Of a stretch of DNA of 64,000 nucleotides, positions 808-45,456 are shown in pieces (the stretch's first letter is position 1; each line of letters opens with the position of its first letter). The position numbers and the translations under genes were made by a program. The stretch is from Tumebacillus lacus (GTDB taxonomy: Bacteria; Bacillota; Bacilli; Tumebacillales; Tumebacillaceae): assembly GCF_026410385.1 (NCBI RefSeq), contig NZ_JAPMLT010000009.1:62001-126000 (forward strand), written 5' to 3'. The notes beneath the pieces were generated by a model. It had not been told where the DNA came from. It was given only the letters and a program-made list of their open reading frames with translations, and did no database searches.

Positions 808-1944
808 ATGAACCAAGCATTCAAATTCCGCGACCGCACCCGCTACATCATCAACACCGACCGGGACGGCCAGCCGTCCCAAAGCGGCCAAGTCCACAGC
901 AGCCCCGAACAACTCCAATCGGTCATCGCCAACATCCTCGACTTCTTTGCCCATCAAGACAACCAAAACACCCCGCCGCGCCTGCTCTTCTACTGCCACG
1001 GCGGCCTCGTCGACGAAGCCCGCGCCCTCCAGATCATGCAGCGCCAATACCGCAACTACCTGCAAAACAACATCTACCCCGTCTTCTTCATCTGGGAATC
1101 CGGGTTCTTTGACATCCTCGAAGACGTCGGCAACTCCCTCGTCAGCGAAATCTTCGACCCCGTCGCGCCCCAACACACCCGTTTCTTCTCCCACATCTTC
1201 CGAGGCGAAGGCCCCCTCGACGAGACCATCGAAGAGCTCGCCAAAGGCTTCTCCGGCGGGTGGTCGGCTTGCAAAGAGCGTGCAAGCCGCGTCTTTGGCG
1301 ACGGCGGTTTCGGTTGGCAGTTTCTCACCCAACTCCTCACCGCCCTCCGCTCCCGCAACCTCCATCCCGAGTTCCACGTCGTCGGCCACAGCGCGGGCGC
1401 GCTCGTCCTCGGCGAGTTGCTGCGCAACCTGCGCACCCACCGGATCGACCTCCCGATCCGCACCTGTTCCCTCTACGCCCCAGCGTGCTCCCTCGCCTAC
1501 TTCGACGACACCTACATCCCGGAGATCACCGCCCCCACCCAGCGCATCGCCGAATTCTACCTCTACACCTTGACCGACGACGAAGAAAAAGCGGACGCCT
1601 GCATCCCCGTCCGCTTCTATCGCTACACCCTCTTTTCCATCTACCGCAAATCCCTGCTCTACCTCATCTCCCGCGGCCTCGAAGGAGCGGCAGAAGACGT
1701 GCCGCTCCTCGGCATGGAGCGCTACGCCGTCGAATCGGCCAACCTCGCCCACATCTGGGCGGCAGCCCGAGGTGCCCATGTCACCTCCGGCACGGATGTC
1801 ACCTGCACCTCCGCCGTCGACGCCTGCACCTTGCATCTCTCCTTCAGCCAGCACACCCACGGCGGCTTCGGCGAGACCGCACAGGTTCTGAGCAGCACCT
1901 TAAAGACCATCCGCCGCGAGGACGCCCTCACCTACCCATTTTGA
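808..1944 (+). CDS. Alpha/beta-hydrolase-fold protein, possible lipase/esterase
   Basis: A 378-residue protein with an AAAGGAGA ribosome binding site just upstream. Serine-hydrolase features are visible: an oxyanion-type stretch 'LLFYCHGGLVDEA' at about residue 60, and the nucleophile elbow 'VVGHSAGALVLGELL' (GHSAG) at about residue 195. A later 'SQHTHGGFG' near residue 350 could supply the catalytic His. There is no signal peptide, so it is probably cytosolic. The substrate cannot be inferred. It resembles hypothetical alpha/beta hydrolases more than any named esterase. It lies downstream of the 55-aa membrane protein and upstream of a 33-codon frame and a terminator. Confidence 0.75.
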   Translation: MNQAFKFRDRTRYIINTDRDGQPSQSGQVHSSPEQLQSVIANILDFFAHQDNQNTPPRLLFYCHGGLVDEARALQIMQRQYRNYLQNNIYPVFFIWESGFFDILEDVGNSLVSEIFDPVAPQHTRFFSHIFRGEGPLDETIEELAKGFSGGWSACKERASRVFGDGGFGWQFLTQLLTALRSRNLHPEFHVVGHSAGALVLGELLRNLRTHRIDLPIRTCSLYAPACSLAYFDDTYIPEITAPTQRIAEFYLYTLTDDEEKADACIPVRFYRYTLFSIYRKSLLYLISRGLEGAAEDVPLLGMERYAVESANLAHIWAAARGAHVTSGTDVTCTSAVDACTLHLSFSQHTHGGFGETAQVLSSTLKTIRREDALTYPF

Positions 1945-2028
1945 CAAAATCCGCGCCCAACCGACAAAAAACGCGCCACACCTCCGAACCATCTCGATGG
2001 ATAGATTTTCTTTCTGGGGGCCAACAAC

Positions 2029-2130
2029 ATGAACAAACAAAAAACAAAACAAAAGCGCCACGCCATCATCCTCTCCTTCATCCAAAAAAAAGTCGACGAA
2101 ACCACCCTCCGCAACACCCTAAAGAAATAA
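2029..2130 (+). CDS. Possible 33-aa basic peptide
   Basis: A short frame (MNKQKTKQKRHAIILSFIQK...) opens 8 nt after a GGGGG run and stops 2 nt before an intrinsic terminator. It therefore sits as the last unit of the hydrolase operon. It is highly basic (Lys/Arg rich), with a short hydrophobic patch AIILSFI. I do not recognise it. At this length it may be non-coding 3' UTR. Confidence 0.35.
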   Translation: MNKQKTKQKRHAIILSFIQKKVDETTLRNTLKK

Positions 2131-2132
2131 AA

Positions 2133-2166
2133 AAGGTGTCCCCAAAAACCGGGACACCTTCTTCCT
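2133..2166 (+). terminator. Intrinsic terminator of the hydrolase operon
   Basis: A perfect 10-bp stem (AAGGTGTCCC / GGGACACCTT) with an 8-nt loop, followed by the T-rich CTTCCTTTTCTTTT tract on the plus strand. Confidence 0.85.
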
Positions 2167-2215
2167 TTTCTTTTCCGCCGTCAGGCCCCACCCGCCCGCC
2201 ACCGAGACAATCGCA

Positions 2216-2308
2216 GGCGGGGGGAGGGGAGGTCCTTTGGAGGAGCGAGTTTTTTACGACACCGTCTTAAATGTCTGAGCGGGGCAAAGGACCTCCCCTC
2301 CCCCCGCC
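2216..2308. repeat. Perfect 24-bp inverted repeat with 45-nt loop, G-rich arms
   Basis: The left arm 2216-2239 and right arm 2285-2308 are exact reverse complements over 24 bp. The left arm carries GGGGGG-A-GGGG-A-GG on the plus strand. The element fills the gap between the plus-strand terminator and the convergent oxygenase gene. No T-run follows the hairpin on the minus strand, so it is not a standard intrinsic terminator. It looks like a REP/MITE-like intergenic element, but no second copy is visible in this window. Confidence 0.75.
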
Positions 2309-2324
2309 GTCACCAGACTAACGC

Positions 2325-3284
2325 CTACTTCTTCTTCACAAGCCCAATCTCAACCAACCGCTCATACAGGAAATCCCCCGCCGTAATCGCTTCCCACTTC
2401 TCCGGATTCTCCTCCGTCACACAAGCCGGAATCGTCTCCAACAGAGCCGCACTGTACGGATGCACAAAATAAGGCATCGAATACCGCGACGTATTTTCCC
2501 CCTTCGGATTGACCACCCGATGAGTCGTAGCCGGGATCACACCGTTGGTGACGCGCTGCAACATATCCCCCGCATCAACGACGATCTGCCCTTTCAACGC
2601 CTCAACCGGATACCACTCACCTTCACGAGTCAGCAGTTCCAACCCGGAAGCGGTCGCCTCGCACAGCAACGTGATCAAGTTGATATCCTCATGCTGCGCC
2701 GCCCGCACTGCATTCGGGTCCATCCCTTCCTCCAGCGGCGGATAGTGAATCGCCCGCAGCACATGGTTGCCGTTGTGAATCATATCGGTAAAGAAATTCA
2801 ACCGCAGATCAAAATGCAGCGCCAACGCTTCCAGCATATTGCGAGCCACACGCTCCAGCTCATAATACAAATTCAACGCCTGCTTGCGAAGTTCCGGCAA
2901 TTCCTCCACCCAGATATTCGCCGGATAATCGTCCGTCCCATGAAGCGGATGCCCGACCGGCAGTTCCTGGCCAACATGCCAAAACTCCTTCAGATCGCCG
3001 ACCGTCCGGTTCTTCGCATGTTCCTTCCCAAACGGCGTATACCCGCGCTGCCCGGAAACAACCGTCACATACTTCCGCTTCGTCTCCTCATCAAGCGAGA
3101 AGAACTCCTGAAACAGCGCATAGTTGTTCTTGATGAGATTCGGGTCAATCCCATGACCTTCCAACGTAATAAATCCGGTCTCTTTCAGACCAGCCGCAAA
3201 CTCATCCGCAAACTTCGCACGCTCGGAAGCATTCCCGTGCGTATAAGATTTCAAATTCAACGTGCGCACCAAATTTTGAGTCAT
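2325..3284 (-). CDS. 2-oxoglutarate/Fe(II)-dependent oxygenase (isopenicillin-N-synthase-like)
   Basis: A 319-residue soluble enzyme of the non-haem iron dioxygenase superfamily. The N-terminal DIOX_N-like region contains 'ETGFITLEGHGIDPNLI'. The jelly-roll core shows the iron-binding triad HxD...H: 'QHEDINLITLL' near residue 200 and 'THRVVNP' near residue 258. The 2OG-anchoring R-x-S is in 'SRYSMPYF'. The start is placed at ATG 3284 because AAAGGGGAT lies 6 nt upstream; an in-frame TTG at 3302 lacks a site. The substrate is unknown, and many relatives are annotated only as IPNS-like oxygenases. A cre-like palindrome lies 23-36 nt upstream of the start. The gene stands alone, convergent with the hydrolase operon. 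Confidence 0.88.
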   Translation of the reverse strand: MTQNLVRTLNLKSYTHGNASERAKFADEFAAGLKETGFITLEGHGIDPNLIKNNYALFQEFFSLDEETKRKYVTVVSGQRGYTPFGKEHAKNRTVGDLKEFWHVGQELPVGHPLHGTDDYPANIWVEELPELRKQALNLYYELERVARNMLEALALHFDLRLNFFTDMIHNGNHVLRAIHYPPLEEGMDPNAVRAAQHEDINLITLLCEATASGLELLTREGEWYPVEALKGQIVVDAGDMLQRVTNGVIPATTHRVVNPKGENTSRYSMPYFVHPYSAALLETIPACVTEENPEKWEAITAGDFLYERLVEIGLVKKK

Positions 3285-3306
3285 CACCAGATCCCCTTTC
3301 AACTGC

Positions 3307-3320
3307 TGAAAACGGTTTCA
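3307..3320. promoter_or_regulatory. Candidate CcpA-binding cre site
   Basis: The 14-mer TGAAAACGGTTTCA fits the Bacillus cre consensus TGWAANCGNTNWCA at every position on both strands. It lies in the 5' leader of the oxygenase gene, where CcpA binding would block transcription. This is inferred from sequence only. Confidence 0.5.
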
Positions 3321-3453
3321 AATCACACAAAACACAAAAACTCTTCCTACTAAGTATACCCTTACCATCTCACCTCCTACTCTACCACGCCCCCTACCCC
3401 CTCGCAACAAAAATTTGTCCAGACGTCTGACATCTAACCTCTCATTCTCACAC

Positions 3454-3483
3454 TTGTATTCTCTCTCCTGTCCGTGCTATACT
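3454..3483 (+). promoter_or_regulatory. Sigma-A promoter of rpsF-rpsR
   Basis: TTGTAT (3454-3459), an 18-nt spacer and TATACT (3478-3483) lie about 70 nt upstream of the rpsF start. This spacing is normal for vegetative promoters. Confidence 0.55.
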
Positions 3484-3553
3484 GTTTCTCGTGCATTTGA
3501 AACGTGCATACCTTGCTCCCACGGGGGCCAAACGTCCAAAAGGAGGGCACGCA

Positions 3554-3853
3554 ATGCGTACCTACGAAACCATGCTTGTTATCAAGACGAGCCTCGAAGA
3601 AGAAGCTCGCGACGCAGTGATCGCCAAGTTCGAAGGCGTGATCGCGAAGGAAGGCGGCAACGTACTTCCGACCACGAAACTCGGGAAGCGTCGTCTGGCG
3701 TACGAGATCAACAAAAACCGCGAAGGGTTCTACGCTCTGTTGAACTACGAAGCGAACTCGACCACTCCGGCTGAGCTGGAACGCCTGATGAAGATCGATG
3801 AGAACATCATCCGCTACCTGACCGTCGTCAAAGAAGAAGTTACGAAAGCCTAA
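3554..3853 (+). CDS. rpsF: 30S ribosomal protein S6
   Basis: A 99-residue protein starting [20 protein letters not shown], with the S6 features '[18 protein letters not shown]' and '[14 protein letters not shown]'. S6 binds S18 and the central domain of 16S rRNA. The start is ATG 3554, with AGGAGG just upstream; an upstream in-frame extension lacks a site. It is followed after 29 nt directly by rpsR. In B. subtilis and many other Bacillota the order is rpsF-ssb-rpsR, so ssb is missing from this locus. Confidence 0.98.
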
Positions 3854-3882
3854 TTCCATCAGTGATCAAGGAGGTTCCTTCC

Positions 3883-4179
3883 ATGAGCGAACAACGCGAA
3901 GAACGTCAACATCAACCGCGTGAACAACGCGAATCCCGTCCGGGTGGCTTCAACAAGAAGCGCCGCGGCAAGCGCCGCAAAGTCTGCAACTTCTGCGTAG
4001 ACAAAGTAAAAGTTGTCGACTACAAGGACATCAACCGTCTGGGTCGCTACGTTTCCGAACGTGGCAAGATCCTGCCGCGCCGCATCACCGGCAACTGCGC
4101 AGCTCACCAGCGCGCTGTTACCCTGGCGATCAAGAACTCTCGCATCGTAGCTCTGATGCCGTACACCACGGAAGTTTAA
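3883..4179 (+). CDS. rpsR: 30S ribosomal protein S18
   Basis: A 98-residue basic protein. The S18 core is visible as '[12 protein letters not shown]', '[20 protein letters not shown]' and '[14 protein letters not shown]'. The ~30-residue N-terminal tail is Glu/Gln/Arg rich ([16 protein letters not shown]). An AAGGAGG site precedes ATG 3883. C-type zinc ligands (CNFC...) are present. It is the second and last gene of the rpsF operon, before a strong terminator. Confidence 0.98.
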
Positions 4180-4193
4180 GAGCTTAGACATAA

Positions 4194-4231
4194 AAAGGAA
4201 GAGCCTCTCCTCAGAGGACTCTTCCTTTTTT
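4194..4231 (+). terminator. Terminator of rpsF-rpsR
   Basis: AAGGAAGAG pairs with CTCTTCCTT around an inner CCTCTCCTCAGAGG hairpin, followed by a T-run on the plus strand. The A-run on the left could also let it serve the opposite strand. Confidence 0.85.
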
Positions 4232-4259
4232 GTGTTGCCGAACCCGTCATCACATTCGC

Positions 4260-4454
4260 TTAGCGGCGGTGCTCAAACAGATCGATCGCACCGAGCACCA
4301 CGTGAGCCAGTCCAAAACCGGCCACGCCCCAAGCGACAGCCGGATCGACTTTATCCGTGCCGCGCAGCACAAGGCCCGTGGCGGTGACAGCCGTGCCCAA
4401 GACCACCGGGATCAACCCTTCGCGAGTATCCATCACCATGTCTTGACCCATCAT
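4260..4454 (-). CDS. Small membrane protein (64 aa), unknown
   Basis: It begins MMGQDMVMDTREGLIPVVLG and contains two hydrophobic stretches (about 14-30 and 42-58, 'VAWGVAGFGLAHVVLGAIDL'), ending in FEHRR. GAGGGGG lies 8 nt upstream of ATG 4454. It looks like a conserved small Bacillota membrane protein, but its function is unknown. It is convergent with rpsR and shares the intergenic terminator. Confidence 0.7.
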   Translation of the reverse strand: MMGQDMVMDTREGLIPVVLGTAVTATGLVLRGTDKVDPAVAWGVAGFGLAHVVLGAIDLFEHRR

Positions 4455-4645
4455 GTCACATTCCCCCTCTGCGAGATGTGGAGTTCTTCCCTATCCTCTC
4501 TCGCAGCGGGGCCGCTTATGCACTTGTCATAGAATGTTGCGTTGTCGCCACCATCTACCACTTTCGCCATGACCCCCGTAAAGTTACAATAGAATCCTAA
4601 CTATCTAGTTGGGGGGCACTCTACTCAACAGGGGGCAATATATTG

Positions 4646-5491
4646 ATGAACCAACCGCAACCGTTTGACTTGTTGCGCGAAACTGTTGGCAAACCGCTGA
4701 AAAAAGCGATGCAAGACCTCGGCTGCCCGTCGTTGCCGAACGGTCTTTTGACGACAGAACACCGCGTGTTCCTAGATGCAAAACTGGATCACCTGCCGAG
4801 CGACCTCGACGCTTTGGACCGTCTGGTCGTCAAGCAAGCGATGAACGGCAAAGTGATCCGCGTCGGCCATGCGCCTGCCGGGGAGAGCCTGTTTACCGTG
4901 CGCTTCCCGTTGCAAAAGGCAGCCTGCGTGATCACATTCGCCTACTACCTCGACCAATGGAGTGTACACAGCATCGATGCGATCCAGACCCGCGCGTTTC
5001 AACTCAGCCGCGTGCTGATCGGCGGCGCGGTCGGGTCGGCCGTCTCCTTTGTCGTCGCGTTCCTACTCTTTGGCACCCCGGGTGACGACATCGTCGCCCA
5101 AGCGAACAAAGAAGGCTACGTCGTCCTGACCAAAGAACAATACGAAGCGAAGACCGGCGAACCGGCACCGGTCCAAAGCGGCGAGTCGAAGGCGAAGACC
5201 GCACCGGGTACGTCCGTTCCGACTCACACCGATACCGCCGCCAAAGACAAAGACGGCAACGATCCGAAAAAGGATCAGAAAACAGACGAGCCGGTCTCTT
5301 TCACGCTCCAATCCGGCATGACCGTCAACGACCTGACCTCCTTCCTCAAACAAGAAGGCCTGATCGCAGACCAAGCCGCCTTCAACCAAAAGCTCACCCA
5401 AGAAGGCATCGACACCAAGATCCAACCCAAAACCTACAATTTCAAAAAAGGCATGACCGAGCAGGAAGTCCTCAACGTCCTGCAAGGCTGA
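4646..5491 (+). CDS. Membrane protein with C-terminal MltG/YceG-like domain
   Basis: A 281-residue protein. The first ~120 residues are cytosolic ('LRETVGKPLKKAMQDLGC'), followed by one transmembrane helix at about 125-145 ('VLIGGAVGSAVSFVVAFLLF'), a charged Lys/Asp/Thr linker, and a C-terminal ~65-residue module ('FTLQSGMTVNDLTSFLKQEG', 'KTYNFKKGMTEQEVLNVL'). That module resembles the LysM-like/YceG substrate-binding part of MltG. The catalytic MltG region is absent, so it is unlikely to be an active lytic transglycosylase by itself. A TTG at 4643 is an alternative start. GGGGG lies 10 nt before the chosen ATG. It is probably anchored in the envelope. Confidence 0.7.
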   Translation: MNQPQPFDLLRETVGKPLKKAMQDLGCPSLPNGLLTTEHRVFLDAKLDHLPSDLDALDRLVVKQAMNGKVIRVGHAPAGESLFTVRFPLQKAACVITFAYYLDQWSVHSIDAIQTRAFQLSRVLIGGAVGSAVSFVVAFLLFGTPGDDIVAQANKEGYVVLTKEQYEAKTGEPAPVQSGESKAKTAPGTSVPTHTDTAAKDKDGNDPKKDQKTDEPVSFTLQSGMTVNDLTSFLKQEGLIADQAAFNQKLTQEGIDTKIQPKTYNFKKGMTEQEVLNVLQG

Positions 5492-14981: not shown

Positions 14982-17900
14982 TTACTTCACCGTGTTGGTC
15001 AGCATGTACTGAACGGAATCGTTCAGCGCTTTCGCAGCCGCTGCCGAGACGTTGCCCGCTTTTTGGTAGGTCGCGAGCGTCTGTTGCAGTTGGGTCAGGT
15101 GCTTCGCCGCTTGGTCGGTGTGACCTTTGGCAAATGCACTGTGAGCTGCGTCCAATTTGGCATGCAGGGAGTTTGCGATCCCTTGGTTTTTCACATCGCC
15201 GGAAGCCAGGAAGCCGTCCACCAGCGCGTTGGTCGAGCGGAAGTCCGCTTCGATCAGGAAGGAGTACGAGACGGTGGTCACGTTGCCTGCGCGGTCGGTG
15301 ACGACAGCGCGGACGGTGTGCGCGCCAAGGCCGAGGTCCAGCGCGGACAATTGCGCGTTGTCGGCGATCCGCTTGTCATCGAGGAACAGTTCCTCGGTGA
15401 GGATGCCGGACAGCGCGTCGGTCGCCGTCAGATCAAACGTGACGGTGCCGTCGATGGCGACGTTGCGCACGTCTCGGCCGCTGTCGGTCAAGGTGACGAC
15501 CGGAGCGGATTTGTCGATGTGGACGGTGAACGATTTGGCTTGTTCCGCGTTGCCCGCTTTGTCGGTCGAGCGGTACTCGACGACGGTGGAGCCTTCGGTG
15601 CCGACGGTGATCGGCGTGGTGTACTCCGCCCATTCCGCGTTGCCGACTTTTACTTCGGTGTTTGCGACGCCGGAGGTCGCATCAGTGCCGGTCAGGGTGA
15701 CCGTAACATCTTTATTGAACCAGCCGTATGCACCTGCCAGTTCGGACAGAGACGCATCGGTGGTCGGTGCGGTCTTGTCCACGTTGACGGTGATCGTCTT
15801 CACTTCTTCTGCGTTGCCTGCGTTGTCGCGGGAGAGGAAGCGGACGGTGGTGGTGCCTTCGGTGCTGATCGTGAACGGACCGGAGTAGACGTTCCAAATG
15901 CCTTCATGGGTCGAGTACTCGGTTTGCTTCACGCCGGACGCGTTGTCGCCCGCGTTGAGGGTGACGGTCACGTCTTGGTTGAAGTAGCCGTTTGCGTTTG
16001 CCGTGCCGGAGAGCACCGCTTCGGTGGTCGGAGCGACGGTGTCGGCCGGGACCGTGAAGTCGTTCAAGCCGCGCGGCTTGAGTTGGTTGACCGTCTTGAA
16101 GACGGAAGACACGCCGGTGACATTGACCGTTTGGCCGTTTTGGTACGGGAAGCCGCTGAGCGACAGACCCGTGCGGTTGTCCACGCGCACGCGGGTGACC
16201 AGGTCACCTTTGACTGCGTTAAACTCAAACGTGCCGGACGTGCCGGTCGGTACGAGGTCTTGGATCGTCACGTTTTCCAGCGTGATCAGTTGACCGTAGG
16301 TTTCCGGGGTGATCGTGTTTGCGAGGATCGGAGTGGGCACGTCTGCCGTGCCGGTCTTGGTCAGCGCGACCGGATCGATCAGTTCCAGTTCATTGTTGTA
16401 CACTTCCAGAGCAGCGGAGATCTTGATCTTGTCGCCGACGTTGTAGCCGGCCGCCGTTTGGAACACGTAGATGCCTGCCGTGCTGTCTTGCAGGTAGAAG
16501 CCTTGGCCGCCAAAGGAGCCCGGCTGCGTGGTGACAACGCCTTCGACGGTGACGACAGTGCCCGGGGATTTGGTGCGGGCATCTGCCAGCGTGATCAGCG
16601 CCGGTACCGGCACGGTGTCGCCCGGCAACGGCTCAGCCGGCACGTTGGCGATGTTGACCGTCTCGGTTTTGACTGCGGTGGAACCGACGCGCACGCGCAG
16701 GTTGGCCGCACCCGTGGTGCCCGGCTTGACGCGCACGGTGACATCCTTGGTCGCGTGACCGTTTTTATCGGCGGTCAGCGAGAACTGCGAGGAGTAGCCG
16801 TATGCGGTCGGCCAGGAGCCGTCTGCATTTTGCATTTGCCCCACCTGCGTGCCGCCGGCCAGATAGATGCCGAAGTTCACGCCGGAGACGGTGGAGAACG
16901 GTGCCAGGTTGTCCGCGACGATGCGCAGTTGGAACGCCTCTGCGTTCGGCAGGGTCGCCTGTTTCACCGTCGAGTAAGTCGGAGTGGCCGGAGCGACGTT
17001 TGCAGAACCGAAGGAGCCCGGAGCAAACGTGCTGCGATCATACCATTTATAGCCGGCAGCCGGTGCTGCCCACGGTTCCGGTTGCGGTTCGGTGGAAGCG
17101 GCCGGGTCCTCGATCGGCAGCAGCGGTGTCGGCTGATCCAGCGCGATGCCTGCTTGGTCGAACGAGGTGTAGCTTTCTTTTTTCGTCAGCCAGTCGACCA
17201 TGTTCAGGAGCAGCGTCGCATCGTCCTGCTCTTTGAAGCCGTCATAGGTCGTCTTGGTTCTGCCGTTTTCTTCACGCAGATATTTCGGAGTCGCGTCTTC
17301 CACCGGCGAAGAGTCACCGATGAAGGCTGCCTTGCCAGCGCCGAGCTTTGAGATCGCCGCGTACGGACCTTCTTCCACACCCCCGCCGTTGTAGACGCCT
17401 TGGTCTACAGCGTTCGGCCATGCAGCGTTGGTCTTCGGCAGGTAGACGAGACCCTTTGCTTTTTTCGGATCGAGGATCGCCATCGTCGAGCCTGCGTGCA
17501 TCGCGACGGTGGAGACACCGTTCGTGATGCCGAACGTCTGAGCCGGCGGCACGATGTTGTCGGCCGTGACGTCGCCAAGCGAGTTGTAGCGGAAGCGGAT
17601 GCCGAAGTTTTCGCCCAACCAGTCGGACGACGTAACGCCTTGCATCGCTTGAGACGCGCGCTCTTCCGCGTTCATGCCTTTCGCCGGGTCGGTCCATGCG
17701 CCGCGACGGTAGCCGTTGAACACTTCCGATGCGTCCCAACGGTTTTTGTTGCGGTCGGCGTTGTAGTGGTCGCCGATGAAGAAGATCGAGCCGCCGCCTT
17801 GGACGTACTGGATCATCGCTTCTTGTTCGGACGCTTTGTACGGAATGTTTGCTTCGCCGATGACAAACGCATCATACCCTTGCAGGTCGGCCAACGTCAG

Positions 17901-18194
17901 CGGCGTGGTTTTGCGCAATTCCTTCACATAGTACCCGCGATTCGCCAACCCGTTGCCAAAATCGGAGAAACCGCCGTCGATTACCCAGTCGGCTGCCCCG
18001 GCAGTCTGCCCGTGGGTGTTGTCAAACAAAATTTTCTTGCCTGCGTTCTCATTGACCACTTTGGCCTGAATCACAGGTGCCGGGTCGGTCGGACCTTCCG
18101 CCTGCGCCAACTGTACCCCGGTCAGCGCGGTCGGGAGCGGCAACGCCAGCGTCATCGCCAGCAAAACACTCAATGCTTGACCTTTGATTCTCAA
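14982..18194 (-). CDS. Large secreted multidomain protein, DUF4350-like domain plus OB-fold, Ig-like and FIMAH modules
   Basis: A 1070-residue exported protein. It has a Sec signal peptide (about 1-32, 'ALSVLLAMTLALPLPTAL...AQA'). An N-terminal domain of ~310 residues carries LFDNTHGQ, ADWVIDGGFSDFG, DHYNADRNKNRWDASEVFNG and GDSSPVED. A beta-rich domain follows (about 360-540, 'PWAAPAAGYKWYD'), then an OB-fold like that of secreted nucleases (about 550-700, 'TVEGVVTTQPG', 'GFYLQDSTAGIYVF'). Three OmpL47/Big-type repeats come next (about 715-985, 'DKTAPTT...WFNKDVTVTL'), and a C-terminal helical FIMAH-like domain (about 990-1070). The start is TTG 18194, with GGAGGTG 6 nt upstream. No catalytic nuclease domain is visible. 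The first two domains are paralogous to the neighbouring 527-aa protein. Confidence 0.8.
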   Translation of the reverse strand: MRIKGQALSVLLAMTLALPLPTALTGVQLAQAEGPTDPAPVIQAKVVNENAGKKILFDNTHGQTAGAADWVIDGGFSDFGNGLANRGYYVKELRKTTPLTLADLQGYDAFVIGEANIPYKASEQEAMIQYVQGGGSIFFIGDHYNADRNKNRWDASEVFNGYRRGAWTDPAKGMNAEERASQAMQGVTSSDWLGENFGIRFRYNSLGDVTADNIVPPAQTFGITNGVSTVAMHAGSTMAILDPKKAKGLVYLPKTNAAWPNAVDQGVYNGGGVEEGPYAAISKLGAGKAAFIGDSSPVEDATPKYLREENGRTKTTYDGFKEQDDATLLLNMVDWLTKKESYTSFDQAGIALDQPTPLLPIEDPAASTEPQPEPWAAPAAGYKWYDRSTFAPGSFGSANVAPATPTYSTVKQATLPNAEAFQLRIVADNLAPFSTVSGVNFGIYLAGGTQVGQMQNADGSWPTAYGYSSQFSLTADKNGHATKDVTVRVKPGTTGAANLRVRVGSTAVKTETVNIANVPAEPLPGDTVPVPALITLADARTKSPGTVVTVEGVVTTQPGSFGGQGFYLQDSTAGIYVFQTAAGYNVGDKIKISAALEVYNNELELIDPVALTKTGTADVPTPILANTITPETYGQLITLENVTIQDLVPTGTSGTFEFNAVKGDLVTRVRVDNRTGLSLSGFPYQNGQTVNVTGVSSVFKTVNQLKPRGLNDFTVPADTVAPTTEAVLSGTANANGYFNQDVTVTLNAGDNASGVKQTEYSTHEGIWNVYSGPFTISTEGTTTVRFLSRDNAGNAEEVKTITVNVDKTAPTTDASLSELAGAYGWFNKDVTVTLTGTDATSGVANTEVKVGNAEWAEYTTPITVGTEGSTVVEYRSTDKAGNAEQAKSFTVHIDKSAPVVTLTDSGRDVRNVAIDGTVTFDLTATDALSGILTEELFLDDKRIADNAQLSALDLGLGAHTVRAVVTDRAGNVTTVSYSFLIEADFRSTNALVDGFLASGDVKNQGIANSLHAKLDAAHSAFAKGHTDQAAKHLTQLQQTLATYQKAGNVSAAAAKALNDSVQYMLTNTVK

Positions 18195-18400
18195 ATTTTA
18201 CACCTCCACAGGAACGATTCGGTTGTGAATTCGTCCCCTTAGTATCTGCCCTATGAGCTCCCCCATCCCCACTTGCAGTCGGATGCCGCATACAGGCATT
18301 ACAACCTTATTCTAGCATCTCAAATGCGTGAATGGGTTATTTTTTCGTAAAGTTGCGATTTCACAAAGGCAGAGAAATTTAAGGAGATTTATATAAGGCA

Positions 18401-18435
18401 AAAAGCCCTTCCATCCGAAGATGGAGGGGCTTTTC
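18401..18435 (-). terminator. Terminator of the 527-aa secreted protein gene
   Basis: AAAAGCCCTTCCATC pairs with GATGGAGGGGCTTTT around CGAA, with a T-run on the minus strand. The remainder of the 18195-18400 gap is AT-rich leader of the downstream gene, including a small ATGCC/GGCAT hairpin. I see no riboswitch class in it. Confidence 0.8.
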
Positions 18436-18451
18436 TTATCAGTAAACATCC

Positions 18452-20035
18452 TTACGGAAGCGGTTGAACCGCTACGTTGTCGACCGTCACAGCTTCGGTG
18501 AACTTGCTCGTCGTGCTTTGACGGAGGCGCATGTTAGCCGCGCCGTAGTAGCTCGGGTTGAGCTGCACGTTGAGGATTTTCGTCGCGGTGCCGGTGCTGT
18601 CGGCCGTCATCGAGAAGTAGGAGCTGTAACCGTACGAGGTCGGCCAGGTGCCGTTCGCGTTCTGCACTTTGGCGATCTGCGAGCCGGAGGTGTTATACAC
18701 GCCGAGGTTGAAGTTGGACTGGGTCGAACCCGGAGTCCAGCCGGTCGCTACGACTTTGACTTGGAACGTGTATTGGTTCGGCAGGATGGACTGGTGCACG
18801 AAGCCCCACGGACCGGACGTCGGCGGCGGGTTGGTGACGGTGCCGCCAGCGCCGTAGGAGCCCGTCTTGAACGTGGTCGGGTCGTACCACTTGTAGCCCG
18901 TAGCCGGAGCAGCCCACGGCTCAGCTTGCGGTTCGGTGGAGTTGGCCGGCAGTTCCCAGGAGTACAGAGCGGTCGGCTGGTCGAGCGTCAGACCGGATAC
19001 TTGGGTCAACGAGGTGTAGCTTTCTTTTTTCGCCAGCCAGTTGACCATGTTGACGAGCAGAGTGGCGTCGTTTTGCTCAGTGAAGCCGTCGTACGTCTTC
19101 TTGGTGGTGCCGGTCTCTTCGCGCAGGTACTTCGGCGTCGCGTCTTCTACCGGCGAGGAATCGCCGATGAATGCCGCTTTGCCGGCACCGACTTTGGAGA
19201 CTGCCGCGTACGGACCTTCTGCCACGCCGCCGCCATTGTAGACGCCTTGGTCAACTGCGTTCGGCCATGCCGCGGTGGTAGCCGGCAGATAGACGATGCC
19301 TTTTGCCTTGGTCGGATCGGTGATCGCCACAGTGGAGCCTGCATGCATCGCCACGGTGGAAACGCCGGTCGTGATGCCGAACGCCTGGGACGGAGCGACG
19401 ATGTTGTTCGCCGTGATGTCGCCGAGCGCGTTGTAACGAATGCGTACGCCGAAGTTGTTCGACAGCCAGTCGGAGGACGTCACGCCTTGCATAGCCGAGG
19501 AGTTGCGCTCTTCGGTGGTGAAGCCTTTCGCCGGGTCGGTCCATGCGCCGCGACGATAGCCGTTGAACACTTCCGATGCGTCCCAACGGTTTTTGTTGCG
19601 GTCAGCGTTGTAGTGGTCGGCGATGAAGAAGATCGAACCGCCGCCTTGTACGTATTGCAACATTGCGTCTTGCTCGGACGCTTTGTACGGGATGTTCGCT
19701 TCCCCGATGACAAACACGTCATAGGCTTGCAGGTCGGTCAGCGTGATCGGCGTCGATTTGCGCAGCTCTTTCACGTAGAAACCGTCGTTTGCCAGTGCGT
19801 TGCCGAAATCGGAGAACCCGCCGTCGATGACCCAGTCTGCCGCGCCGGCCGTTTGGCCGTGCGTGTTGTCGAAGAGAACTTTCTTGCCTGCGTTGCCGTT
19901 GACCACCTTCGCCGTGATCTCCGGAGCCGGATCGGACGGGCCTTCTGCCGTCGCCAGTTGTCCGCCGCTCCACAGTGCCGGCACTGCCAGCGTCATAGCC
20001 AAGATCACCTTGGCCGCTTTGTTTTTCCAAGTCAT
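18452..20035 (-). CDS. Secreted protein, DUF4350-like domain, paralogue of the 1070-aa protein
   Basis: A 527-residue exported protein with a signal peptide (about 1-30, 'AAKVILAMTLAVPALWSGGQ'). The N-terminal domain is nearly identical to that of the downstream 1070-aa protein: LFDNTHGQTAGAADWVIDGG, 'DHYNADRNKNRWDASEVFNG' and GDSSPVEDATPKYLREE. A C-terminal beta-domain ('PWAAPATGYKWYDPTTF' to the end) is also shared. It lacks the OB-fold, Ig and FIMAH modules. ATG 20035 is chosen because GGAGGTG lies 8 nt upstream. Tandem duplication followed by C-terminal extension or loss is the simplest history. Activity is unknown. Confidence 0.8.
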   Translation of the reverse strand: MTWKNKAAKVILAMTLAVPALWSGGQLATAEGPSDPAPEITAKVVNGNAGKKVLFDNTHGQTAGAADWVIDGGFSDFGNALANDGFYVKELRKSTPITLTDLQAYDVFVIGEANIPYKASEQDAMLQYVQGGGSIFFIADHYNADRNKNRWDASEVFNGYRRGAWTDPAKGFTTEERNSSAMQGVTSSDWLSNNFGVRIRYNALGDITANNIVAPSQAFGITTGVSTVAMHAGSTVAITDPTKAKGIVYLPATTAAWPNAVDQGVYNGGGVAEGPYAAVSKVGAGKAAFIGDSSPVEDATPKYLREETGTTKKTYDGFTEQNDATLLVNMVNWLAKKESYTSLTQVSGLTLDQPTALYSWELPANSTEPQAEPWAAPATGYKWYDPTTFKTGSYGAGGTVTNPPPTSGPWGFVHQSILPNQYTFQVKVVATGWTPGSTQSNFNLGVYNTSGSQIAKVQNANGTWPTSYGYSSYFSMTADSTGTATKILNVQLNPSYYGAANMRLRQSTTSKFTEAVTVDNVAVQPLP

Positions 20036-20171
20036 TTCTCGCACACCTCCGCAAGGATGCAAAACAGTCTATGATTTCAAAACTATTTCATTTTAACACG
20101 GATACAGCGGATTTTGGTGTAGAATATGTAAAAATTTTTTGGAAAGAATAATTTCTATTTAATCCCAGATG

Positions 20172-23905: not shown

Positions 23906-25096
23906 TTACCACGACAGCCCGAGAAGATCATGCACCTTCAGCGGCTCCACATCCATCCTCACGCGCACCGCCGCGTAGGAGTCCACTCCGTTTACCGTGC
24001 CGAAATAGCCCGCTGTCGAGTCCGTTTTGGAAAACGTGAATTTGTAGCCGAACCGTGGCGGCTGACCTTGCTGACCTTTTGTATCCTGTGTATCCTGTCG
24101 AGCTTGCTTTTGTTGCCCGCTTTGCCGGAGCATCCACCCGATTTGCGTCTGCGCTGTGTTATCGATAAGGCCAACGGTCATCCCTCGGTGAAACGCATTT
24201 GTCTGCGTCAGATCGGTGATCACCCGATTGCCCTTCCGATACTCCTCGCCTTGGCGAATCAACGTCTTCTGTTCGTGGACCCGTATTTCCCCTGTCCGCA
24301 GATCATAACGGTCGCCCTCCTGCAAAAGCGTCACCTCCACTCCGCTCACCCTCACCCCGAGCGGCCCTTCTTCCCATGTGGCCCGCGACGCATCGAGGAT
24401 CATCACCGCACCCGTCCCGATCACCTCAAACGACTCCTCGCCGCACACCGCCATCGCTGTATTTTCATCCACACCAAACCCGAGCGGCACGCCCGTTTCC
24501 ACCAACACGCGAGCGAGCCGCGCCGGCCGCCCGTCATACGTGTTGAAATGCTGATCGATGATCCCTCCCTTGAACAAGCCCAACCCCGGCGACACATACA
24601 CCCCGCGCCGATACGGCTGCGTGGCCAGACCCCCGTCGAGCGTATCGAGCGGGACCCCGGACGCCGACATCATCCGCTCGCTCTGCATCGCCGCCCCGGC
24701 ACTGCTCCCGGCGATCACCCCGCCGGTCGCATAGACCCTGCGGATCGCCGCCATCACCGGTGTATCCCGCCCTTCTGCCGTCAACAACGCCTCCGTGATC
24801 CTCAGCTGATCCCCGCCGACAAAATAAAACCCGGTGGAGCGCTCGATCTGCGAAATCAGGTCTGTCCGTGTCAGGTCGGCTATATAAATATGTTCGGGCG
24901 GCACCCCGTACCGCACCAGATCATCCATCATCCGCTGCGAAGACGCAAGAGAAGCACTCGCCGTCGGAAAGATCCCGATCCGTGCCCGCTCCATGCCCCC
25001 GGCGAAGTCGATGAACCGGCGATACACCGCCACATGGTCGGACCGCAACGCCCCGCCGATCACCAACAGATGCCCTTGTTCACACATCGTCCGCAT
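23906..25096 (-). CDS. Cyanophycinase-like S51 peptidase
   Basis: A 396-residue enzyme. The S51 fold is visible: 'GHLLVIGGALRSDHVAVYRR' at the N-terminus, 'FYFVGGDQLRITEAL' around 110, and the nucleophile elbow 'GGVIAGSSAGAAMQSERM' at about 145 with the serine in GSSAGA. 'GLGLFKGGIIDQHFNTYDGR' carries the catalytic-site His, and 'LGFGVDENTAMAV' follows. Cyanophycinases cleave beta-Asp-Arg dipeptides from cyanophycin; here no cyanophycin synthetase is present, so the substrate may differ. A Gln/Lys/Asp-rich linker (about 325-345) precedes a short C-terminal beta-module. ATG 25096 has GGGAGGG 6 nt upstream. Confidence 0.88.
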   Translation of the reverse strand: MRTMCEQGHLLVIGGALRSDHVAVYRRFIDFAGGMERARIGIFPTASASLASSQRMMDDLVRYGVPPEHIYIADLTRTDLISQIERSTGFYFVGGDQLRITEALLTAEGRDTPVMAAIRRVYATGGVIAGSSAGAAMQSERMMSASGVPLDTLDGGLATQPYRRGVYVSPGLGLFKGGIIDQHFNTYDGRPARLARVLVETGVPLGFGVDENTAMAVCGEESFEVIGTGAVMILDASRATWEEGPLGVRVSGVEVTLLQEGDRYDLRTGEIRVHEQKTLIRQGEEYRKGNRVITDLTQTNAFHRGMTVGLIDNTAQTQIGWMLRQSGQQKQARQDTQDTKGQQGQPPRFGYKFTFSKTDSTAGYFGTVNGVDSYAAVRVRMDVEPLKVHDLLGLSW

Positions 25097-25197
25097 CGTC
25101 GTCCCTCCCTCCCGGTTTATCGTTTTCATTCTTCACAAGCTATGCTATGATTTAAATGGTTATTAATACGAACGCCACCGAAAGGGGACCGTACCAC

Positions 25198-44625: not shown

Positions 44626-45456
44626 TTACAGATCCTTCGCCAGCCACTTGATGGTGTTGATCGCGAGCTTTGCATGGCTGTGCTGGGTGTAGCTGTAATA
44701 GGAAGCCACCGACGTGTAACCGGTGCCGTCGTTGTACGGCGAAGAGTCGCCGATCGCGGAGACACGGCCGCCGGACGGAAGTTGGGACGCGACGATGTAC
44801 GGGTTGGTCGTGTCGCCGGACACATACGCGACGCCTTTCGCGTATGTCGAGTTGGTGATCTTGAAGGTGGCGCCGTTGTATACGCCGACTGCGGTTACGC
44901 CCGACGTGATCGCATGAGAGCGGATATCGGTCACCGGATCTTGGAACTTGTCGTTTTCGTTCACGCGGAAGCCAAAGTATTTGCCCACCCACTCGCTGGT
45001 CGAGGAGTAGTTGCCGAGGGTGTAGCCGTTGAAGATCTCGACCGAGTCCCAACCATCGCTGTTGCGGTCGGAGTTTGCATGGTCAGCAATCACGTACAAG
45101 CCTTTGCCCTTGTTGATGACAAAATCGTTGATCGCCGATTTCTCCGTCGAGGAGAAGTTGGTGTTCGGCTCCGGCAGGACCAGCACATCGACAGAAGACA
45201 GCAGTGTCGAGGTGATCGTGCTCTTGTTTTCGATGACATTGTAACCGGCGTTGCGCAGGTCGCGAGCCCAGTCGGAGTACGCGCCGTTGATCACCCAGTC
45301 CGCGTTGCCGCAGGTGTTGCACTTGGAGTTGTCAAACAGGATCGTCTTGCCAACTGCTTGCGCGGTATTGACAGCCTTCACGCCGTCAAACGCGAACGTT
45401 CCTGCCACAAGAGTGGATAACGTCAAGGAAAATACAAAGGAACGAGCGAATTTCAT
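44626..45456 (-). CDS. Secreted single-domain protein, distant paralogue of the 15-20 kb secreted proteins
   Basis: A 276-residue exported protein with a signal peptide (about 1-33, 'SFVFSLTLSTLVAGTFAFDG'). The mature part is one DUF4350-like domain: 'TILFDNSKCNTCGNADWVIN', 'DHANSDRNSDGWDSVEIFNG' and 'GGRVSAIGDSSPYNDGTG'. These align position for position with the N-terminal domains at 14982-18194 and 18452-20035. It adds a Cys pair (KCNTCGN) absent from the others. GGAGG lies 11 nt before ATG 45456. Minus-strand TATAAT lies at 45504-45499. Function unknown. Confidence 0.82.
   Translation of the reverse strand: MKFARSFVFSLTLSTLVAGTFAFDGVKAVNTAQAVGKTILFDNSKCNTCGNADWVINGAYSDWARDLRNAGYNVIENKSTITSTLLSSVDVLVLPEPNTNFSSTEKSAINDFVINKGKGLYVIADHANSDRNSDGWDSVEIFNGYTLGNYSSTSEWVGKYFGFRVNENDKFQDPVTDIRSHAITSGVTAVGVYNGATFKITNSTYAKGVAYVSGDTTNPYIVASQLPSGGRVSAIGDSSPYNDGTGYTSVASYYSYTQHSHAKLAINTIKWLAKDL

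Follow-up and report, generated by a model that had tools for sequence, protein, structure and literature searches.

What do two neighboring genes for exported proteins do whose common domain of about 290 residues recurs in a third gene some distance away? This question is raised by a 64,000-nucleotide stretch of Tumebacillus lacus DNA (contig NZ_JAPMLT010000009.1, positions 62,001 to 126,000; G+C 58.5%), the whole of which is called the window here. The domain is predicted to adopt the GIFT (GldG/IFT52-like, GATase1-like) fold, and sequence comparison indicates that the family is a distinct, exported branch of the GIFT superfamily. It is probable, in our assessment, that the window proteins are surface or secreted phosphate-starvation proteins that capture or cleave nucleic acids, nucleotides, or other phosphoesters outside the cell; this phosphorus-scavenging role is suggested by the order of genes, by repeats in promoters, and by fusions to nucleases. 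The three genes, which carry the only GIFT copies in the whole genome, and the parts needed for the argument are as follows:

14982-18194, minus strand: gene 1, an exported protein with GIFT, beta-sandwich, OB, three OmpL47/Ig-like, and FIMAH domains (1070 amino acids, TTG start, no cysteine)
17181-18047, minus strand: GIFT domain of gene 1 (residues 50-338)
17709-17771, minus strand: motif DHYNADRNKNRWDASEVFNGY of gene 1
18452-20062, minus strand: gene 2, an exported GIFT and beta-sandwich protein (536 amino acids from TTG, 527 from ATG)
19028-19894, minus strand: GIFT domain of gene 2 (residues 57-345 of the 536-residue open reading frame)
19556-19618, minus strand: motif DHYNADRNKNRWDASEVFNGY of gene 2
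44626-45456, minus strand: gene 3, a GIFT-only paralogue (276 amino acids)

A preliminary description of the locus had proposed two adjacent exported paralogues of 527 and 1070 residues, a set of motifs shared by them, additional OB, three Ig-like, and FIMAH domains in the larger protein, and a third copy at 44.6 kb. All of this holds. Both reading frames are present as co-directional neighbors whose proteins are 71% identical across 519 aligned residues, the quoted motifs all occur, an OB-type domain (with a sub-threshold DUF5689 match), OmpL47-type repeats, and FIMAH were matched in the larger one, and the third copy consists of the domain alone. The same description had considered that no enzyme family fits and had left the fold to structure prediction and a fold search, and this view had to be revised. 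The AlphaFold2 model, calculated from a 78-row alignment (predicted local distance difference test, pLDDT, 88; predicted template modeling score, pTM, 0.74), matched the IFT52 GIFT domain best (Z 20.2, root mean square deviation 2.7, 214 residues; VIA-align), followed by the site-1 protease (Z 19.0) and then by Wbp1/OST48 (about 16) and ThuA-like proteins (Z 15-16). Foldseek, run on the two-domain model, ranked mainly matches to the Ig-like beta-domain at the top, and the GIFT match surfaced only with VIA-align. The beta-domain alone matched nothing more specific than generic Ig/Fn3-like sandwiches (Z about 9), and therefore no function follows from it.

The profile comparisons agree with the GIFT fold. 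Gene 2 alone found no match among the solved structures with phmmer, and only the family profile reached IFT52 (hmmsearch; 5fmr_A, E 4.7e-4, across a 45-residue stretch). Sub-threshold Pfam/NCBIfam matches were obtained with ABC_transp_aux, IFT52_GIFT, ThuA, DUF4350, the fourth GATase-like domain of MBTPS1, and GldG. As the window proteins remain below the PF09822 (ABC_transp_aux) cut-off of 34.7 bits (18.7, 23.0, and 28.6 bits), we place the family at the superfamily level only; three relatives (L162, L177, and L198) exceed this cut-off with 35.1, 36.7, and 37.5 bits. With the profile of the gliding protein GldG (TIGR03521, equivalog cut-off 389.85 bits), the window proteins reached at most 19.5 bits. 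A family thus fits at the level of the fold, which by the test set in the preliminary description itself refutes an unknown fold, although GIFT itself is not an enzyme family: the fold is familiar from the cilia, protein-glycosylation, and gliding machineries, where it forms non-enzymatic parts. The domain scan detected no nuclease or nucleotidase domain (SNase, metallophosphoesterase) in the window proteins, and in the open-licence PMC set we found no paper describing the family.

Gene order in other Bacilli, to which our survey of phn neighborhoods was directed, points to phosphorus. In Staphylococcus epidermidis, the GIFT gene (NCBI name 'Gldg family protein') adjoins genes for a 5'-nucleotidase and a phnDCEE transporter, and the same order was seen in further Staphylococcus genomes and in an S. 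aureus phage-record contig. Genes of phnDCEE type flank the GIFT gene in about 18 of 79 first-scan loci (Paenibacillus), in every Staphylococcus locus examined, and in several more families; at these phn-flanked loci, a 5'-nucleotidase-type phosphoesterase often stands beside the GIFT gene, and at one locus, PhoU and polyphosphate kinase take the place of the phn genes. A PhnD-C-E-E ABC transporter is found near the GIFT gene in five families of Bacilli. In a sample of 399 Bacilli genomes, the GIFT gene was present in 44 of the 53 genomes with a close PhnD and in 37 of the 346 without (odds ratio 41), a statistic that ignores phylogeny. The two genes lie within 15 kb of each other in 25 of the 44 genomes having both (four families), a proximity that would arise by chance in well under 1% per genome; in the fifth family (L174, L203), the GIFT gene is near a diverged PhnD.

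Judging from gene order, the S. aureus orthologue is presumably SACOL0129. SACOL0129 has been called uncharacterized and is an antigen in mice (PMC4840433), and the neighboring SACOL0130/SA0140 is listed as '2',3'-cyclic nucleotide 2'-phosphodiesterase' (PMC5217359). A 282-kb record named 'Staphylococcus phage SA 1306 Kay' (L225; OR844989.1, 248219-259610) contains a phosphopentomutase-like open reading frame, phnEECD, the GIFT gene, and a 5'-nucleotidase gene, and because of this gene content it looks like host DNA deposited as phage. The phage matches in the search were rejected, their records resembling host DNA. In some genomes of the Staphylococcaceae group (L166, L167, and L169), a GIFT gene directly precedes a gene for an immune-inhibitor-A-like M6 peptidase.

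The upstream regions are consistent with regulation by phosphate. We scanned 104 non-redundant regions for three TTHAYA hexamers at fixed spacing, with a threshold of at least 15 of 18 positions and 300 dinucleotide shuffles for comparison, and period 11 (weakly also 10) alone was enriched: 29 regions scored, compared with 7.3 +/- 2.6 in the shuffles and a shuffle maximum of 15. An 11-nt unit has been reported for Pho boxes, and B. subtilis shows similar features (PMC4415409); in an S. aureus phoU2 mutant, phnC, phnD, and phnE were raised together with pst (PMC7326077). These data suggest that the family genes may be under PhoP control. In the window, the pattern TTTACR-N7-MACC occurs once upstream of each of genes 1 and 2, which makes 2 occurrences in 64 kb compared with 0.17 expected for a pattern that was drawn from these genes themselves, and a similar upstream block is found in the sister genus. 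The candidate operators are:

18335-18351, minus strand: candidate PhoP-like operator of gene 1, TTTACG-N5-ATAACC, upstream of TAGAAT (weak alone)
20116-20132, minus strand: candidate PhoP-like operator of gene 2, TTTACA-N5-TACACC, upstream of TTAAAAT (weak alone)

Fusions link the domain to enzymes of nucleic acid degradation. A clostridial protein of 2000 residues combines OB domains and an EEP nuclease with a complete DH-type GIFT domain and the beta-domain, and a Cohnella protein has the order DUF6359, OB, SNase, DH-type GIFT, beta-domain, and OB; domains of the SNase or metallophosphoesterase kind occur in the fused relatives L097 and L129. The T. lacus genome itself encodes a secreted protein of 1281 residues with DUF6359, OB, SNase, and 5'-nucleotidase domains (L243, G000:C22:141000-147500, 1152-4994), the C-terminal OB domain of which is 33% identical to that of gene 1 (E 1e-23). 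Most long relatives have OB domains (DUF5689) after the GIFT unit. Large surface proteins of Bacillota (L130, L131, and L134) combine PHP/CehA-type and OB domains with a GIFT domain that has no DH motif. A group of relatives (L171, L172, and L211) ends in a WxL cell-wall-binding domain, with a gene for a WxL-interacting protein adjoining.

The preliminary description had regarded the conserved Asp/His/Asn/Arg/Glu pattern as a possible active or metal site, and had named the loss of the polar residues in most homologues as the observation that would speak against this. We found the contrary. Among 133 distinct copies, with identities to gene 2 down to 37%, 15 polar or aromatic positions are kept in every copy: D65, T71, D76, W77, S84, E121, E130, D149, H150, D154, R155, D161, D301, S303, and D307 (numbering of the 536-residue gene 2 reading frame). 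Part of this set was fetched with motif patterns, whereas an unbiased profile search supplied the loci of Staphylococcaceae and other distant groups. H68 is replaced in a single copy, by Lys in gene 3. The model places D65, E121, D149-H150, and D301-S302-S303 immediately after one beta-strand each, and in flavodoxin-like folds the C-terminal ends of the parallel strands are the usual ligand-site edge, so that the invariant residues may form one pocket. Distant GIFT domains that the same profile found in PHP/CehA-type and 5'-nucleotidase proteins retain no more than the D65/H68 pair, and their lack of the DH-DRN-WD and GDSS motifs is the reason why we regard the family as a branch of its own.

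This conservation also bears on the alternative of a module that binds or scaffolds but does not catalyze, for example one that binds cell-wall or extracellular polysaccharide, in which case the link to phosphorus would come via the partners only. The GIFT domains of OST48/Wbp1, IFT52, and site-1 protease, which are the nearest solved folds, are thought to be just such modules, and the ChitinaseA_N-like and Ig-like modules as well as the SLH-type and WxL-type anchors that occur in some relatives are typical of surface proteins. GldG and IFT52 served to define the GIFT domain, for which sugar binding has been proposed (Beatson and Ponting, 2004, as cited in PMC7226087 and PMC11231238). However, so many invariant positions exceed the usual needs of a scaffold, and the motifs that contain them are missing from distant GIFT domains; we therefore consider a pure binding module possible but somewhat unlikely. 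Quite unlikely is a second alternative, in which the invariant residues are a structural calcium site that stabilizes an extracellular domain and no active site is present. The extracellular location would suit such a site, and the small-type relatives have DRNNDGWDS or DRDHDGWDS at this place, similar to the DxNxDG loops of calcium-binding proteins. The main type reads DRNKNRWD, without the DG pair, yet it keeps all other invariant residues, and the conserved residues are located at four separate strand ends, which is more than one loop requires.

A secreted hydrolase unrelated to phosphorus, acting for example on glycans or amides, was suggested by the GATase-like domains of GH42 galactosidases and the Agd3 deacetylase among the structural matches, and it is very unlikely in our view. 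GH42 enzymes and Agd3 have a catalytic domain distinct from the GATase-like one, the cysteine nucleophile of class I amidotransferases is absent from the proteins of gene 1 and gene 2 (the latter in its 527-residue form has no cysteine at all), and the genomic context is phosphorus rather than sugar. A class I amidotransferase or ThuA-type enzyme in particular was rejected, as these two proteins have no cysteine and the ThuA and DUF4350 matches remain below the Pfam cut-offs.

The near-identical DNA that the preliminary description had noticed in genes 1 and 2 is real, with the partner coordinates shifted by 2: positions 17713-17772 correspond to 19560-19619, and when this stretch is aligned by codons, 58 of 60 bases are the same. 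In the motif stretch DHYNADRNKNRWDASEVFNGY, 19 of 20 third positions are identical between the two genes, compared with about 65% of the third positions of shared codons elsewhere, so that the near-identity is local. A recent duplication or gene conversion, as had been concluded from it, is nevertheless extremely improbable and was dismissed, because a non-paired paralogue of another species (L009) is equally similar at these third positions (19/19 with gene 1, 19/20 with gene 2) and because three genomes of the sister genus already have the tandem pair, with genes for about 530 and about 1000 residues side by side. The invariant motif together with a strong codon bias suffices to explain the similarity, and the comparison indicates that the duplication is old.

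For the phosphorus-scavenging role, the following sequence of events can be envisaged. Low phosphate would switch the genes on via a PhoP-type regulator. The protein would be secreted or held at the surface, as the SLH and WxL anchors of relatives illustrate, and the Ig-like and FIMAH domains of the long copy may help to hold it there. The cluster of Asp, His, Glu, Arg, and Asn residues at the C-terminal sheet edge, probably with a metal ion, would then bind a phosphoester as its ligand, for instance nucleic acid or nucleotides. Going by known family functions, the OB, SNase, EEP, and 5'-nucleotidase domains of the same or neighboring proteins could degrade the ligand to nucleoside and phosphate or to small organophosphates, and Pst/Phn-type ABC transporters could import the products. 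Whether the GIFT domain itself would hydrolyze the phosphoester is a separate matter: this is somewhat doubtful even if the phosphorus role is right, and overall we judge catalysis by this domain to be rather unlikely. The same reserve applies to the proposal that the family is a new class of secreted metal-dependent phosphoesterases or nucleases with the GIFT fold, which many Bacilli, Staphylococcus aureus among them, would possess and which would partner a phn-type transporter and a 5'-nucleotidase.

Several observations weigh against a phosphorus-scavenging role of the window proteins. The neighbors of the pair in the window are an M32 carboxypeptidase and an SdpI-type membrane protein, with no phosphorus genes, and the phnD-like gene of the same genome shows no more than 44% identity and is located on another contig. 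Some lineages have a strong phn link and others none, phn neighbors are missing at most of the Paenibacillus loci that do not belong to one group, and the co-occurrence of the GIFT gene with PhnD is confounded by phylogeny. In addition to the weakness of the candidate operators in the window, TTTACR-N7-MACC has 15 matches genome-wide compared with 20 for the reversed control, and the search with it yielded no regulon. Fusions and neighborhoods cannot tell binding from catalysis, and GIFT domains of solved structure are not known to be enzymes.

The remaining features concern the architecture of the three genes. For gene 2, the ATG at 20035 (527 amino acids) is the likelier start because GGAGG precedes it, and the proteins of gene 1 and gene 2 both have, as judged by eye, a Sec-type signal sequence ending in AxA. 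Gene 3 is 39% identical over the domain and is the sole copy of the 133 without His68; the only cysteine pair among the three window proteins is found there, two residues apart from the substituting Lys (FDNSKCNTCGNADW). In sister species (L016 and L018), a lamin-tail-domain and GIFT protein carries the calcium-loop-like DRNNDGWDS, and one of them adjoins a second GIFT-only copy. Conserved neighbors of the pair were not found within the window; a cyanophycinase-like open reading frame is located nearby at 23906-25129. Because of the terminator-like hairpin between them, genes 2 and 1 are probably transcribed apart. The closest named relatives of the window genome are Tumebacillus flagellatus and T. 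permanentifrigoris.

15000-15236, minus strand: FIMAH domain of gene 1 (Pfam 2.2e-15)
15246-15989, minus strand, limits approximate: three OmpL47-type/Ig-like repeats of gene 1 (NCBIfam 2.8e-47)
16056-16595, minus strand: OB-type (DUF5689-like) domain of gene 1, homologous to the OB domains of the SNase/5'-nucleotidase protein of the genome
16623-16982, minus strand: Ig/Fn3-like beta-sandwich domain of gene 1
18410-18425, minus strand: terminator-like hairpin separating gene 2 from gene 1 (such sites are no commoner here than in shuffles)
18455-18823, minus strand: C-terminal Ig/Fn3-like beta-sandwich of gene 2 (residues 414-536)

If the phosphorus-scavenging role is correct, it would be the first extracellular metabolic role for the GIFT fold, possibly a catalytic one, and it would provide a testable function for an uncharacterized secreted staphylococcal protein, presumably SACOL0129. 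The family may also help to explain what the widespread phn transporter beside a 5'-nucleotidase imports in Bacilli.

Among known systems, the GIFT superfamily (GldG, IFT52, OST48/Wbp1, and the C-terminal domain of site-1 protease; PF09822, PF23355, and PF23090) shares the fold and profile similarity with the window family, whereas the window proteins are exported, stand alone or together with OB, Ig, and FIMAH domains, belong to no membrane complex, and have the invariant DHxNxDRN-WD, ADW, and GDSS motifs, without which distant GIFT domains are found. ThuA, DUF4350, and GATase1-like proteins have the same broad flavodoxin-like fold (Z about 15 for ThuA-like proteins), but the window proteins are below the Pfam cut-offs and genes 1 and 2 lack the cysteine of class I amidotransferases. 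With the YhcR-type secreted nuclease/5'-nucleotidase (OB, SNase, Metallophos, and 5_nucleotid_C), the family has the OB modules DUF5689 and DUF6359 in common, whereas nuclease and nucleotidase domains are absent from the window proteins. The S. aureus SACOL0129 locus, with the order deoB-phnEECD-[GIFT]-5'-nucleotidase, contains the same GIFT and beta-domain protein, about 51% identical, between the phn transporter and the 5'-nucleotidase-type protein.

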